Under the pieces are notes generated by a model. That model did not search any database. It had not been told where the DNA came from and worked only from the letters and a program-made list of their open reading frames with translations. A stretch of 64,000 bases of DNA from Emcibacter sp. (lineage in GTDB: Bacteria > Pseudomonadota > Alphaproteobacteria > Sphingomonadales > Emcibacteraceae). The stretch's first letter is position 1; every line of letters starts with the position of its first letter. The stretch is from positions 434,001-498,000 of the forward strand of contig JAJFIQ010000026.1 of NCBI GenBank assembly GCA_021774785.1. The letters run 5' to 3'. Positions 17,208 to 30,728 of the stretch are shown here, one piece after another. Position numbers and translations under genes: made by a program.

Positions 17208-18629
17208 CTATTTTGTCGTCCTGATTTTTTCAATGATGTGATTAACCTGATCTTCAGCATAACGGATGCCTTGATCGCTTTGAACAATAAAATCCGCGCG
17301 CTGTCTTTTTTCAGAATCCGGCATTTGCTTACTCAGAATATTTTCAAGTTTTGTCACCGTCATATCCGGTCGCGCCAATACCCGCATCCGCTGAACATCC
17401 GCTGGTGCAGACACTACCACCGTATAATCACAATGCGCCTCTCCGCCGGTCTCAAACAATAGCGGTACATCCACCACCACCATATCATGACCCTGTTCTT
17501 CTGCCTTTTCAAAAAAAACCTGCCGCATGTCAGACACCATGGGGTGTAAGATAGATTCCAGTTTTTTTAACGCCTCCCCATCACTAAAAACCATTGACCC
17601 CAACCGTTTACGATCAATGCCGTCCGGACTGCGCACACCGGGAAAGGCTTTTTCCACCCGGCCCACTGCTGCACCACCCTTGGCCATCAAGATATGCACC
17701 GCCGCATCGGAATCAAACACCGGCACATATGCCCGCTCAAACATTTTCGCCGTTTCCGATTTTCCCATACCAATGGACCCGGTCAGCCCTATGACCTTCA
17801 CTGTCCTCAGTAAGTGCTGGCGGAGATCTATGTCCACTTCCGGGTTTTGTCCAAACCACTCCTGAAAGGCGGGGGCGGCCTGATAGAGAAGCATACCTAA
17901 ACCATCAACACAAATATTACCCTGTGATCTTGCCGCTTTCAACAGTCCTGTTTCCAGCGGGTTATAAACAATGTCATAAACCACTGCATGTGGGGGCAGG
18001 TCGCACAGATCAATATCCAGTGACGGTTTCCCTGTCATGCCAAGAGTTGTTGTATTGACCAGCAATGCGGCACCCAATAGTTTTTGTGATCGATCCTGCC
18101 AGTCACTGACCACAATCCGGCGGTCGTTATATATTTCAGCCAGATTATCAGCCCGCGCCCTCGTGCGGTTAATCAGCCGAATTTCCGGTACGCCGTCATC
18201 CAGCAGACTGACAATAGCCGCGCGCGCCGCACCACCGGCACCAATGATCACCGCTGGACCGTCTGTTGCTTTCCACGATGGCACTTTTTCTTTCAGGTTG
18301 GTTAAAAAACCATAGCCGTCTGTATTTGTTCCAAATAGCCGTCCCTCCCGACGGGTGACCATATTCACGGCCCCTATTCTACGGGCCACATCATCCACCT
18401 CATCCAGAAAAGGAAAGACGATTTCTTTATGAGGTACGGTCAGGTTTAGTCCGGTAATATCTTTTTTGGGCAGTTTTTTCAAAAATGCCGCCAAATCTTC
18501 TGGCTTTACGGCATAAGCCTCATATTTCCCACTAATGCCATATTTCTGCAACCAATAATTATGTAGTTTTGGTGATAGGGAATGGCTTATGGGCCAGCCG
18601 ACGACGCCTGTTTTTAAAATTTTTGTCAT
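17208..18629 (-). CDS. aroE-coaE: Fused shikimate dehydrogenase / dephospho-CoA kinase
   Basis: One uninterrupted frame of 473 residues carries two enzymes that are normally separate. Residues 1 to about 270 are AroE, reducing 3-dehydroshikimate: catalytic Lys68 in NLTVPHKE, Asp104 in NTDGYGF, and the NADP site IIGAGGAARA (128-137). Residues from 277 are CoaE, the last step of coenzyme A synthesis: P-loop GLTGSIGMGKS (281-291) and DVPLLFETGG. The linker DIDLRQHLLRT is short. Val277 is encoded by GTG (17801) with GAGG just before it, so CoaE may also be made alone. Most alphaproteobacteria have aroE and coaE adjacent in this order, so loss of the aroE stop is the likely origin. A sequencing error is the alternative. 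Confidence 0.9.
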   Translation of the reverse strand: MTKILKTGVVGWPISHSLSPKLHNYWLQKYGISGKYEAYAVKPEDLAAFLKKLPKKDITGLNLTVPHKEIVFPFLDEVDDVARRIGAVNMVTRREGRLFGTNTDGYGFLTNLKEKVPSWKATDGPAVIIGAGGAARAAIVSLLDDGVPEIRLINRTRARADNLAEIYNDRRIVVSDWQDRSQKLLGAALLVNTTTLGMTGKPSLDIDLCDLPPHAVVYDIVYNPLETGLLKAARSQGNICVDGLGMLLYQAAPAFQEWFGQNPEVDIDLRQHLLRTVKVIGLTGSIGMGKSETAKMFERAYVPVFDSDAAVHILMAKGGAAVGRVEKAFPGVRSPDGIDRKRLGSMVFSDGEALKKLESILHPMVSDMRQVFFEKAEEQGHDMVVVDVPLLFETGGEAHCDYTVVVSAPADVQRMRVLARPDMTVTKLENILSKQMPDSEKRQRADFIVQSDQGIRYAEDQVNHIIEKIRTTK

Positions 18630-19261
18630 GATGCTAGAATATTCAATTTTCTAAGATTTTCCATCACATTTAATAACGGCAACCCAAGTATGGCAAAATA
18701 ATCCCCCTGAATTTCACAAAAAAGCCGTGGCCCCAAGCTTTCAAGCATATAGCAACCAACAGAATTCAAAATCTCAGAACCAGATTTTTGCAGATAGTCT
18801 GTTAAAAACCCATCGCTAAAGTCACGCATAACAAGTCGGGGGCGTATTGTCTGGCATATTAAAACCTGGCCATCCCGGATCAGGGCATAGGACGTATACA
18901 GAAAATGATTTTTCCCACGAAAAAAGCGTAAATGCTTTTCAGCTTCTTTCATATCAAGGGGTTTATCAAATATCTGATCTTCACATACCAATAATTGATC
19001 CGCGCCAAGAATGACCTTCCCCGGATGACCGGAACTAATGGCCAGAGCCTTGTCTATGGCCAGCTGTTCGGATATTTTTTGCGGTAATGCCCCTTGCTCT
19101 GTCATGGTTTTTTTTATCGCCGCCTCATCAATATCTGCTGCTTCAAACAAACAAGAGATTCCTGCATTATTCAACATGGCCCGTCGGGAACCACTGGCAG
19201 AGGCCAGAACTAACTTTATCGCATTTTTTTCACTCACTGGTTTTTTCTTTATCGTCATCAA
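18626..19261 (-). CDS. maf: Maf-family nucleoside triphosphate pyrophosphatase
   Basis: Maf proteins hydrolyse non-canonical or modified nucleoside triphosphates (dTTP/UTP or m7GTP types) and delay septation when overproduced. The signatures are LVLASASGSRRAMLNNAGI at about 17-35, the basic and acidic residues of AADIDE, and the catalytic GADQLL near 92. The 211 residues are normal. The start lies inside the end of ppsR, overlapping by about 32 bases, and the end overlaps aroE by 4 bases as ATGA, so the genes are coupled. Confidence 0.93.
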   Translation of the reverse strand: MMTIKKKPVSEKNAIKLVLASASGSRRAMLNNAGISCLFEAADIDEAAIKKTMTEQGALPQKISEQLAIDKALAISSGHPGKVILGADQLLVCEDQIFDKPLDMKEAEKHLRFFRGKNHFLYTSYALIRDGQVLICQTIRPRLVMRDFSDGFLTDYLQKSGSEILNSVGCYMLESLGPRLFCEIQGDYFAILGLPLLNVMENLRKLNILAS

Positions 19262-20060
19262 ATTTATATTTCAGCTTCATAATGGCCCCAGCTGTTTCCT
19301 CAATGGATCTGCGGGTAACGTTAATTACTGGCCAGCCCCGACCGGAAATTAAGCGTTGTGCTTGTTGAACCTCATGCTTGATGGCACCTTCATCAACATA
19401 GGTGGTCTTTTTATTCTCTTTTAAAGACAGCAACCTGTTCCGCCTGATATGAACCAACCTGTCCACGCTATTAATCAGGCCAACGACAAATTTATCCCCA
19501 AGACCATCCAGCTCTGCGGGTAAGGGTTGATCGGGGACGATGGGAACATTGGCCGTCTTCATCCCCTTATTGGCCAGATAAACACTGGTTGGTGTTTTTG
19601 ATGTTCGGGAGATACCGACCAAAATGATGTCGGCATCTTTCAAGCCTTCCAAACATTGGCCATCATCATGCATCAGCGTATATTGCATGGCATCAATCCG
19701 TTCAAAATATTCATCATTCATTTGGTGCTGAAGTCCGGGCCGCGCGATACTTTTTTGACCTAAATGGTGACCTAACTCACGGATAATGCCATGAAGAACA
19801 GAAATATACGGCCAGTTATTTTTATCACAAGACCGGATCAATACATCCTCAATGTCTTTATTGACCAATGTAAACATTACTATGCCCTGCTTCTCCGCAA
19901 ATTCCGGCAACAATCTTTCCATATGACGGGCCGTCCTGATCATGGGCCAATAATGTTTTTGTGCTAAAACGTCCGGAAATTGTGCGAGTGCTGCCTTGGC
20001 CACCTGCTCCAAAGTATCGCCCGTAGCATCGGAAACCAGATGAAGATGAACTTTTTTCAT
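19230..20060 (-). CDS. ppsR: Pyruvate phosphate dikinase/PEP synthase regulatory protein (DUF299)
   Basis: This bifunctional protein uses ADP to phosphorylate, and phosphate to dephosphorylate, a threonine of PPDK or PEP synthase. The P-loop-like motif VGISRTSKTPTSVYLA near residues 152-167 is diagnostic, and HLVSDATGDTLEQV at the N-terminus is typical. The length of 276 residues is normal. The target enzyme is not in this window. The gene is the first of a run pointing away from the origin gap, the position this family holds beside oriC in several alphaproteobacteria. Confidence 0.93.
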   Translation of the reverse strand: MKKVHLHLVSDATGDTLEQVAKAALAQFPDVLAQKHYWPMIRTARHMERLLPEFAEKQGIVMFTLVNKDIEDVLIRSCDKNNWPYISVLHGIIRELGHHLGQKSIARPGLQHQMNDEYFERIDAMQYTLMHDDGQCLEGLKDADIILVGISRTSKTPTSVYLANKGMKTANVPIVPDQPLPAELDGLGDKFVVGLINSVDRLVHIRRNRLLSLKENKKTTYVDEGAIKHEVQQAQRLISGRGWPVINVTRRSIEETAGAIMKLKYKFDDDKEKTSE

Positions 20061-20318
20061 AATAAAATGCTGCTTTATCTTAATTATGGGGATAACTGGC
20101 CTTATTTAATAATGGCGCTGTTTTCATACACCCTATTCTTTTTTTATAACGGGTTTTATCCGCTTGAGGATAAAAAATTTTCTTCCTTGTTAAATTTGGG
20201 TGATATTTTCTTTTATTTTCACCAATTAAAATTTATGCCCGTTATCCCCGTTATTAAATTTCATGGCCTGTGGCCTTATCCATAGACTTATTCCCATAAA
20301 ACCGCTATGTGATAAAAA

Positions 20319-20332
20319 TCTAGATTACTAGA
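20319..20332. repeat. Small palindrome in oriC
   Basis: TCTAG-ATTA-CTAGA (20319-20332) is an inverted repeat in the middle of the origin gap. It is not a DnaA-type sequence. It may bind another initiation factor, but I cannot name one. Confidence 0.35.
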
Positions 20333-20349
20333 TGTCCTGTTCGTTATTC

Positions 20350-20371
20350 AGGGGATAACTTTTAATCCCCT
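20350..20371. repeat. Hairpin-forming dyad in oriC
   Basis: AGGGGAT (20350-20356) and ATCCCCT (20365-20371) make a 7-bp inverted repeat. One arm overlaps a DnaA-box-like sequence on the minus strand, so it may be a paired DnaA site. Confidence 0.4.
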
Positions 20372-20397
20372 ATATTCACAGGCATCCACTACAACAT

Positions 20398-20430
20398 CTA
20401 CTTTTTATTTATATATAAATAATATAGTAG
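20398..20430. other. Candidate DNA-unwinding element of oriC
   Basis: This is the most AT-rich patch of the gap. Its centre is a perfect 18-bp palindrome, TTATTTATATATAAATAA (20405-20422), inside an outer CTACT/AGTAG pair (20398-20402 and 20426-20430). A DnaA-like box (TTATACACT on minus) follows at 20441-20449, just before hemE. AT-rich unwinding elements next to DnaA boxes are the norm in bacterial origins. Confidence 0.55.
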
Positions 20431-20466
20431 TTTTCTATTCAGTGTATAACTTTGGCCATACATTAC

Positions 20467-21507
20467 ATGATAAATAACAAAAGATTTCTTCAAGCTCTTA
20501 AAGGCAAATCAACTGACAAAATCCCTTTCTGGTATATGCGACAGGCTGGTCGATATTTACCTGAATATATGGAACGTCGTAAAACAGCAGGTTCTTTTCT
20601 TGATCTCTGCTACTCACCGGACTTTGCTGTTGAGGTAACTCTTCAACCGCTGCGCCGATATAATATGGATGCTGCCATACTCTTTTCAGATATTCTTGTC
20701 GTACCACAAGCTTTGGGTCAACATCTAGAATTTAGGCAGGGTGAAGGCCCAGTTCTAACACCTGTTGATACAGCAGAAAAAATAAACAGGCTTAGCATGA
20801 ATGGCTTTCATGAGCATCTCGCGCCTGTTTATGAAACGGTAAACAGGTTGAGTAAGGAAATACCAGAAACCACTTCCTTAATTGGTTTTGCCGGAGCGCC
20901 ATGGACAGTGGCCACGTATATGGTACAGGGACACGGATCACCGGATCAAGCGGCGACCAGAGCATTAGCATTCCAGCAGGAAGATGATTTTCAGGGGTTG
21001 ATTGATCTTTTAGTTAAGGCAACCTCCGAATATCTTTTAAGGCAGATTGAAAAGGGTGCAGAGGTCATTCAGATTTTTGATACCTGGGCCGGAAATCTTC
21101 CCGATGATCAATTTCGTAAATGGGCCATAGAACCCATGAAACAGATCGTGGATAATCTTCGCCAGAAACATCCGGATATTCCCATCATTGGTTTTCCAAG
21201 AGGCGCGGGATGTCGTTATCCGGAATATATTAGCGTCACAGGTGTCACAGCTGTCTCTGTTGATACTACAATGCCGCTTGAGTGGGTACGGGATCATATT
21301 CAACCGTTATGTCCTGTACAGGGAAATCTGGACCCGCTGCTACTGGTCGCTGGTGGTGATCAAATGGAAAGACGTGTTTTGGAAATACTGGATTGTTTGA
21401 GTGGCGGACCGTTCATATTTAATCTGGGCCATGGTATTGTGCCGCAGACACCACCGGAAAATGTGGCGCGGCTTTCAAAAATTATCCAAGAATATCAGAT
21501 AAAATAA
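20467..21507 (+). CDS. hemE: Uroporphyrinogen decarboxylase
   Basis: HemE removes four acetate carboxyls from uroporphyrinogen III to give coproporphyrinogen III. The signature MRQAGRYLPEY with the substrate-binding Arg, FSDILVVP with the catalytic Asp, and FAGAPWTVATYMV are all present. The frame opens at a TTG (20452), but I chose the ATG at 20467, giving 346 residues starting MINNKRFLQAL. The stop TAA shares its last base with the hemH start (TAATG). Its place beside the origin is conserved in the class. Confidence 0.97.
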   Translation: MINNKRFLQALKGKSTDKIPFWYMRQAGRYLPEYMERRKTAGSFLDLCYSPDFAVEVTLQPLRRYNMDAAILFSDILVVPQALGQHLEFRQGEGPVLTPVDTAEKINRLSMNGFHEHLAPVYETVNRLSKEIPETTSLIGFAGAPWTVATYMVQGHGSPDQAATRALAFQQEDDFQGLIDLLVKATSEYLLRQIEKGAEVIQIFDTWAGNLPDDQFRKWAIEPMKQIVDNLRQKHPDIPIIGFPRGAGCRYPEYISVTGVTAVSVDTTMPLEWVRDHIQPLCPVQGNLDPLLLVAGGDQMERRVLEILDCLSGGPFIFNLGHGIVPQTPPENVARLSKIIQEYQIK

Positions 21508-28131: not shown

Positions 28132-28147
28132 TGTTTCACGTGGAACA
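28132..28147. other. parS: parS site 1 (ParB centromere site)
   Basis: TGTTTCACGTGGAACA is a full 16-bp match, read on the minus strand, to the bacterial parS consensus TGTTNCACGTGAAACA. ParB nucleates here and spreads. It lies between mnmE and mnmG, about 7.7 kb from oriC, and is the reverse complement of parS site 2. Confidence 0.95.
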
Positions 28148-30098: not shown

Positions 30099-30728
30099 AT
30101 GCCCAAGGTATTTGATGAGAATCTGTTTTTTGAAAAGGTCAATGTTCCACGTGAAACAATGGAGAATATTCGTACCTATGCGATTCTTCTGAAAAAATGG
30201 CAGAAAAGACTTAATCTGGTTGGCGAGACAACCATACCAGACCTTTGGTTGCGACATTTTTATGACAGCTATCAGTTAAAAGCACAATTTGATATGTCAA
30301 AATCGGAAAATTTGCGGATTCTCGATATTGGCAGTGGTGCCGGCTTTCCGGGTCTGCTACTGTCCATGCTCGGCCTTGGCGAATTTCATATGGTGGAAAG
30401 CAATGGAAAAAAATGCACCTTCATGCGCCAGGTTATCAGGGAGACCAGCTGTAATGCCATAATCCATAATGAACGGGCGGAAATGATGATGCCTTTTCCT
30501 GTGGACTATATCATCTCCCGGGCCTGTGCCTCCCTTGAGAAACTATTTGATTTGGGGCGAAATTTTATACGAGATGATACTGTTTGTCTGTTTCTAAAGG
30601 GACAAAGTGCCGAGCAGGAAATCGCCGAAGCCATGTTAAAATGGGATTTTGAGGTTGAAAAGTTCACAAGCGTTGCCCAAGAAACGGGTATGATACTGAA
30701 AGCCAGTCATATAAAGGCTTTGCGTTAG
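30099..30728 (+). CDS. rsmG: 16S rRNA (guanine-N7) methyltransferase RsmG
   Basis: RsmG methylates G527 of 16S rRNA with S-adenosylmethionine; loss gives low-level streptomycin resistance. The SAM motif LDIGSGAGFPGLLLSML is at about 71-87, and RNLVGE-like KRLNLVGETTIPDLWLRHFYDS precedes it. The length of 209 residues is normal. The codons for residues NVPRET (about 15-20) are written in parS site 2, so this stretch serves both protein and centromere. Confidence 0.97.
   Translation: MPKVFDENLFFEKVNVPRETMENIRTYAILLKKWQKRLNLVGETTIPDLWLRHFYDSYQLKAQFDMSKSENLRILDIGSGAGFPGLLLSMLGLGEFHMVESNGKKCTFMRQVIRETSCNAIIHNERAEMMMPFPVDYIISRACASLEKLFDLGRNFIRDDTVCLFLKGQSAEQEIAEAMLKWDFEVEKFTSVAQETGMILKASHIKALR
30143..30158. 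other. parS: parS site 2, inside rsmG
   Basis: TGTTCCACGTGAAACA matches the parS consensus exactly on the plus strand. It is the exact reverse complement of site 1, 2 kb upstream. It lies in the first 20 codons of rsmG. Confidence 0.96.

Follow-up and report, generated by a model that had tools for sequence, protein, structure and literature searches.

A very probable chromosomal replication origin with weak DnaA boxes between ppsR and hemE in an Emcibacter genome, and a candidate DnaA box on either side of its AT-rich element

The origins of Caulobacter crescentus (Cori) and Rickettsia prowazekii are the closest described counterparts of the locus analyzed here, which shares their flanking genes, an AT-rich element and DnaA boxes. 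Passages of one paper place both origins between hemE and COG1806 and report related origins without CtrA sites (PMC1914354). As described in parts of two further papers, the Caulobacter origin combines moderate G-boxes with very weak W-boxes (consensus TCCCCA), and replication can fall when the affinity of its boxes is raised (PMC4285127, PMC4468827). A second point of comparison is the basal unwinding system (BUS) of Bacillus subtilis and other bacteria, in which, according to excerpts of PMC8287927, a DnaA box, a short spacer and trio-like triplets lead into AT-rich DNA, as they also do here. The published BUS search, as outlined in those excerpts, retained one candidate for almost every genome and would therefore miss opposed pairs. 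In B. subtilis, service of the second strand by DnaD at the DRE is proposed in passages of PMC10201434, and passages of that paper and of PMC10721633 treat the loading of two helicases on opposite strands of a bacterial origin as an unsolved question. A search of open-licence PMC papers found no report of opposed unwinding elements.

The stretch of DNA analyzed (the window, 64 kb, C19:434001-498000) belongs to an assembly of 3.50 Mb in 28 contigs. The features that locate the origin within it are as follows.

20061-20466, no strand: oriC gap between ppsR/COG1806 and hemE, marked by the skew switch, conserved synteny and a box cluster
19230-20060, minus strand: PpsR / COG1806 / DUF299 gene flanking the gap, an ORF named by the earlier note
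20467-21507, plus strand: hemE flanking the gap, an ORF listed from a TTG at 20452
28132-28147, plus strand: parS-like site with one mismatch to the parS consensus
30143-30158, plus strand: parS-like site with one mismatch to the same consensus, within the rsmG ORF and shortly before parAB

The gap measures 406 bp, has an AT content of 0.69 as compared to 0.53 for the window, and is flanked by genes that point away from it (ppsR on the minus strand, hemE on the plus strand), so that the earlier note, made from the letters of the window, was right to describe an AT-rich gap at a gene-orientation switch beside hemE. A listed ORF with a TTG start (19980-20285) spans part of the gap and overlaps ppsR, and is taken as a chance ORF. 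A hemE match was present in 38 of 40 genomes, and ppsR adjoins hemE in 27 of the 30 loci compared, the remaining three running into a contig or record end (both counts include the genome studied here). The order ppsR-gap-hemE is conserved accordingly, which is the comparison with related genomes that the earlier note had suggested. The ppsR-side gene is presumably a member of the COG1806 / DUF299 family, an assignment that draws in part on passages of PMC1914354, and the gap is the intergenic region that defines the alphaproteobacterial hemE/COG1806 type of oriC.

GC skew was followed along 400 kb of contig C19 (705 kb long) and 800 kb of contig C11 (1179 kb long), both from the 28-contig assembly. 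On C19 the skew is minus in 10 of 10 20-kb blocks left of the gap and plus in 10 of 10 blocks right of it, and the single-base minimum falls at window position 20707, just within hemE and ∼250 bp from the gap. A skew minimum elsewhere would have spoken against the earlier proposal of an origin here, and none was found in these 400 kb. On C11 a plus-to-minus switch lies near 560 kb, resembling that of a terminus. A complete relative, G011, sampled in 20 stretches of 20 kb, has plus skew in the nine stretches between 0 and 1.76 Mb and minus skew in the ten between 1.98 and 3.96 Mb, and its skew changes sign at hemE (4.099 Mb). Two sites that we take to be parS-like lie 8-10 kb from the gap, near genes named from their ORFs as mnmG, rsmG and parAB; two such sites were reached in 3 of 100 shuffles. 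Because of the skew, the likeness to G011, the least stable 40 nt of the window (described below), the parS-like sites and the ppsR-hemE synteny, the assignment of 20061-20466 as the chromosomal oriC is strongly supported, and the box cluster described next adds to the case for what the earlier note had proposed. It is extremely improbable that the gap is merely an intergenic region near a true origin lying, for example, at dnaA, 75 kb away. While dnaA is on the same contig (C19:529848), and origins linked to dnaA are common in other phyla, the skew changes sign at the gap and not at dnaA, and the density of TTATCC peaks at the gap. The location of this origin is textbook for its class, and the origin is ordinary by location, with lineage-specific variations, the first of which concerns its DnaA boxes.

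20087-20095, minus strand: weak DnaA box TTATCCCCA, which includes the W-box word TCCCCA (column identity 0.94)
20156-20173: inverted pair of weak boxes, TTATCCGCT on the plus strand (20156) and TTATCCTCA on the minus strand (20165), from the box and repeat scans
20242-20250, plus strand: weak box TTATCCCCG, with a tandem TTATCCACA pair at the same place in G016
20276-20284, plus strand: weak box TTATCCATA (column identity 0.97)
20288-20296, plus strand: weak box TTATTCCCA, from the box scan
20350-20358, minus strand: weak box TTATCCCCT, whose surroundings recur around 20441 (16 of 18 nt)

As the earlier note had stated, the gap holds no perfect TTATCCACA (0 matches), nor a perfect consensus box of any kind. 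Its count of about seven one-mismatch boxes stands for the degenerate pattern TTWTNCACA, which has seven matches with at most one mismatch as compared to a mean of 1.18 in 1000 dinucleotide shuffles (p 0.001), and fails for TTATCCACA itself, which has three (20087 minus, 20165 minus and 20276 plus); six matches with at most one mismatch were found for TTATNCACA. Three further places in the 400 kb of C19 equal the three one-mismatch TTATCCACA matches, making the gap a non-unique maximum by that measure. The word TTATCC, however, occurs six times in the gap, against 0.54 in shuffles, and per 406 bp the next best count is three in the 400 kb of C19 and the best is four in the 800 kb of C11, which makes the gap the densest TTATCC cluster in 1.2 Mb. 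The box cluster exceeds chance, and every box in it is weak. These boxes parallel the weak W-boxes (TCCCCA) of Cori, as characterized in the passages of PMC4285127 and PMC4468827; unlike Cori, the gap has no G-box TGATCCACA among its one-mismatch matches. It also differs from the Caulobacter type, which is not universal, in lacking any CtrA-type or IHF-type site at up to one mismatch; at two mismatches the CtrA-type pattern gives 16 matches and is too loose to carry meaning. The absence of GANTC, noted earlier as a departure from Caulobacter, is correct as a count (0) and means little as a sign, since only ∼1.1 sites are expected. A homologous origin gap in another genus of the same order (L030:1038-1488 and L031:2530-2980, from G027 and G039) has 13 GANTC in its 451 bp as compared to an expected 1.66, identically placed in both genomes, an arrangement that resembles a methylation-site cluster at an origin.

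Across all 13 genus rows of an alignment (A1, from which G010 was omitted as a near-copy of G006), column identity is 0.94 for 20087-20095, 0.97 for 20276-20284 and 0.64 for 20242-20250, with 0.67 for the whole gap. Since the columns at 20087 and 20276 are conserved above the gap as a whole, the genus seems to keep weak boxes as such. Two of the 14 genus origins hold a perfect TTATCCACA, as do 6 of 8 origins from other members of the family and 6 of 8 examined from the remainder of the order, counts that take in two partial gaps (L014 and L018). The word TCCCCA is shared by 10 of the 14 genus origins and also turns up in outgroups, and is therefore no mark of the genus. A stretch at 20275-20318, CTTATCCATAGACTTATTCC..AAACCGCTATGTGATAAAAAT, is partly box-like and mostly common to the genus rows of A1, with G013 and parts of others deviating; it was not seen in the two rows from other genera.

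The earlier note had suggested that degenerate boxes may reflect a divergent DnaA specificity. A shift in the specificity of the genus DnaA, for instance toward TTATCCCCA, would fit the scarcity of perfect TTATCCACA in the genus and a substitution confined to it, ANVRR at the start of domain IV, which is present in 14 of 14 genus loci and 0 of 16 others (ANDRR, ANDRK or ANNRR). The three domain IV motifs that hold the base contacts (ARPRQ, SLP and GGRDHTTV), however, are identical in 30 of 30 listed loci (39 genomes had a match) and are present in the E. coli DnaA structure 1j1v, and the box on the hemE side of the AT-rich element retains the ordinary TTATNCAC. Over 1.2 Mb, TTATCCCCA was observed 18 times with 16.4 expected and TTATCCACA 27 times with 22.5 expected (fourth-order Markov expectation), and 8 of the 27 neighbours of TTATCCACA score higher; because neither word is clearly over-represented, the counts give a new consensus no favour and do not settle DnaA specificity either way. 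An apparent enrichment of TTATCCACA over its reversed pattern (72 versus 20 in G000) vanishes under the fourth-order Markov expectation. With canonical DnaA motifs, and with a weak-box origin already known in Caulobacter (from passages of PMC4285127), a divergent specificity was rejected on the unchanged domain IV motifs, and we regard it as very unlikely to explain the boxes. In the DnaA of the genus (L001:1486-1776 and relatives), ANVRR coincides with the lack of perfect boxes in the corresponding origins. An origin of weak boxes filled co-operatively is the simplest reading of the gap. It would represent an alphaproteobacterial lineage besides Caulobacter with weak boxes only, apparently conserved as weak, and a combination of such an origin with an ordinary-looking DnaA may help separate site strength from protein specificity.

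The second variation concerns the AT-rich element and its surroundings.

20399-20438, no strand: likely DNA unwinding element, the least stable 40 nt in 64 kb, which holds the palindrome
20405-20422, no strand: perfect 18-bp palindrome TTATTTATATATAAATAA, from the repeat scan
20372-20380, plus strand: ppsR-side box beside the AT element, ATATTCACA, which is TTATTCACA in several genus members
20389-20406, plus strand: candidate ppsR-side DnaA-trios CTA-CAA-CAT-CTA-CTT-TTT, interrupted, read from the sequence
20441-20449, minus strand: putative hemE-side opposed DnaA box TTATACACT, identified by family conservation
20425-20430, minus strand: candidate hemE-side DnaA-trios CTA-CTA (column identity 0.81)

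The earlier note had recorded the AT palindrome, which is indeed perfect, and had missed that this putative unwinding region has a DnaA box on each side of its AT element. A conserved block lies right of the weak boxes and consists of the box TATTCACA-GG, CCACTACAACNACTACT, TTTTATTTATATATAAATAATATAGTAG, a spacer and AGTGTATAAC; the trio pattern on its ppsR side (CTA-CAA-CNA-CTA-CTT) is interrupted. The block resembles the box-spacer-trio design as published in the passages of PMC8287927, where the BUS rule calls for a box with at most two mismatches, a spacer of 0-16 nt and at least three NAN trios. Under this rule the ppsR side gave no candidate in the window; it is passed by 4 of 14 origins in the genus and 4 of 8 elsewhere in the family, in part through boxes other than the conserved one, as compared to 17-20% of shuffles. 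The arrangement differs from the described BUS in that its candidate elements face each other from two sides and its ppsR-side trios are interrupted.

On the hemE side, the minus strand runs from TTATACACT across 10 nt of spacer to CTA-CTA, which leads into the AT element. At this place 17 of 22 family origins carry a perfect TTATNCAC (each with a shuffle rate of 0 to 0.02), three carry it with one mismatch (shuffle rates 0.14 to 0.18) and two lack it (L006 and L017); no exact TTATNCAC was found on the plus strand there. The varying base of the box is the position left open by the E. coli consensus TTWTNCACA. Column identity over the 13 genus rows is 0.84 for the box, 0.81 for TAGTAG, 0.58 for the spacer and 0.53 for the hemE leader. 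A table of nine genus rows gave an invariant box, but its rows were picked for an intact box and constant spacing, making the 13-row values the fairer ones. In the window the BUS rule picks out TTATACACT, a spacer of 15 and ATA-TTA-TTT-ATA, and there are two GAT-type trios; on this strand the rule is passed by 10 of 14 origins in the genus and 7 of 8 elsewhere in the family, as compared to 3-5% of shuffles. For the window and for most genus rows, the trios so picked out consist only of A and T, come from the AT element and lie 14 or 15 nt off the box. Because shuffling disrupts the AT run, the box is the informative part of the hemE-side element. A stricter rule (three or more NAN trios, with a GAT among them) is passed by 2 of 14 genus and 3 of 8 other family origins. 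Outside the family, the hemE-side scan passed 2 of 8 origins in the order and 3 of 78 named alphaproteobacterial loci (shuffles 4%), so that an opposed element was not seen class-wide by a scan that is insensitive at this distance, given that the ppsR-side element too was found in only 7 of 78 (and 4 of 8 in the order). A crude home-made search for the ppsR-side element found nothing in many of the named alphaproteobacterial loci. One locus from another alphaproteobacterial lineage, L110 (CATLPD010000001.1), has before hemE the box TTATTCACA, a 5-nt spacer and five continuous trios on the hemE side, and reads as a clear candidate for an opposed element. Within the window, 20345-20362 and 20436-20453 are direct copies of 18 nt, 16 of 18 identical and 91 bp apart, each with a minus-strand box, and the box on the hemE side may have arisen by duplication of the inner one at 20350-20358.

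The hemE-side box lies 17 bp ahead of the hemE ATG, where the plus strand reads TATAAC and, in L014, TATAAT. It is quite possible, although we do not favour it, that the box is a hemE promoter element, ordinary or DnaA-controlled, outside any unwinding device, and this explanation gains, at the expense of opposed elements, from the AT-only trios of the window and the TATAAT of L014. Between 19900 and 20600, however, no promoter-like pair was found on the plus strand, and the two on the minus strand are under the shuffle mean of 3.3. In 18 family rows the first base of the supposed -10 hexamer is T, C or A and the last is C except in L014, variation unlike that of a -10 element and as expected for TTATNCAC, and for most rows this pattern argues against an ordinary -10 element. 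G011 has a leader to hemE of 54 nt instead of 17, while its spacer to TAGTAG is 9 nt instead of 10; its box, however, carries one mismatch.

We consider it very probable that the gap is a chromosomal oriC at which an ordinary DnaA acts on a lattice of weak boxes to open the AT element at 20399-20438. The location, skew, duplex instability, box cluster, conservation and unchanged DnaA motifs are computed results; DnaA binding, co-operativity, unwinding and helicase loading are inferred. DnaA, with its ordinary DNA-binding domain, would fill the weak-box lattice co-operatively as DnaA-ATP and nucleate at the boxes flanking the AT element, where filaments would start. Extending from one or both sides, these DnaA-ATP filaments would capture single-stranded DnaA-trios and so open the element, onto which helicases would be loaded. 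If both sides work, each strand would carry a filament, and with a helicase of 5'-to-3' polarity the forks would diverge. The stronger proposal, that in the origin of this family two opposed DnaA-box/DnaA-trio elements share one AT element with DnaA filaments on both strands, is rather unlikely on present evidence. DnaA on the minus strand at the ppsR side would then load a helicase heading toward ppsR, and DnaA on the plus strand at the hemE side one heading toward hemE, a geometry in which two opposed helicase-loading platforms are possible. Were it true, the sequence itself would answer how both helicases are placed, and two-helicase loading could be tested directly on a natural origin whose opposed box/trio elements are conserved. 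A family-conserved opposed box at a likely unwinding element, in a genus without strong boxes, is worth a second look.

Elsewhere in the window, the minus strand at 17208-18629 carries aroE (shikimate dehydrogenase) and coaE (dephospho-CoA kinase), named from reading the ORF, as one in-frame ORF of 473 aa. Among the matches listed, the two genes occupy two frames in G011 (L100) and other loci, and share one frame, as far as the loci reach, in L101 (residues 1-381), L130 (5-364) and L131 (7-309).
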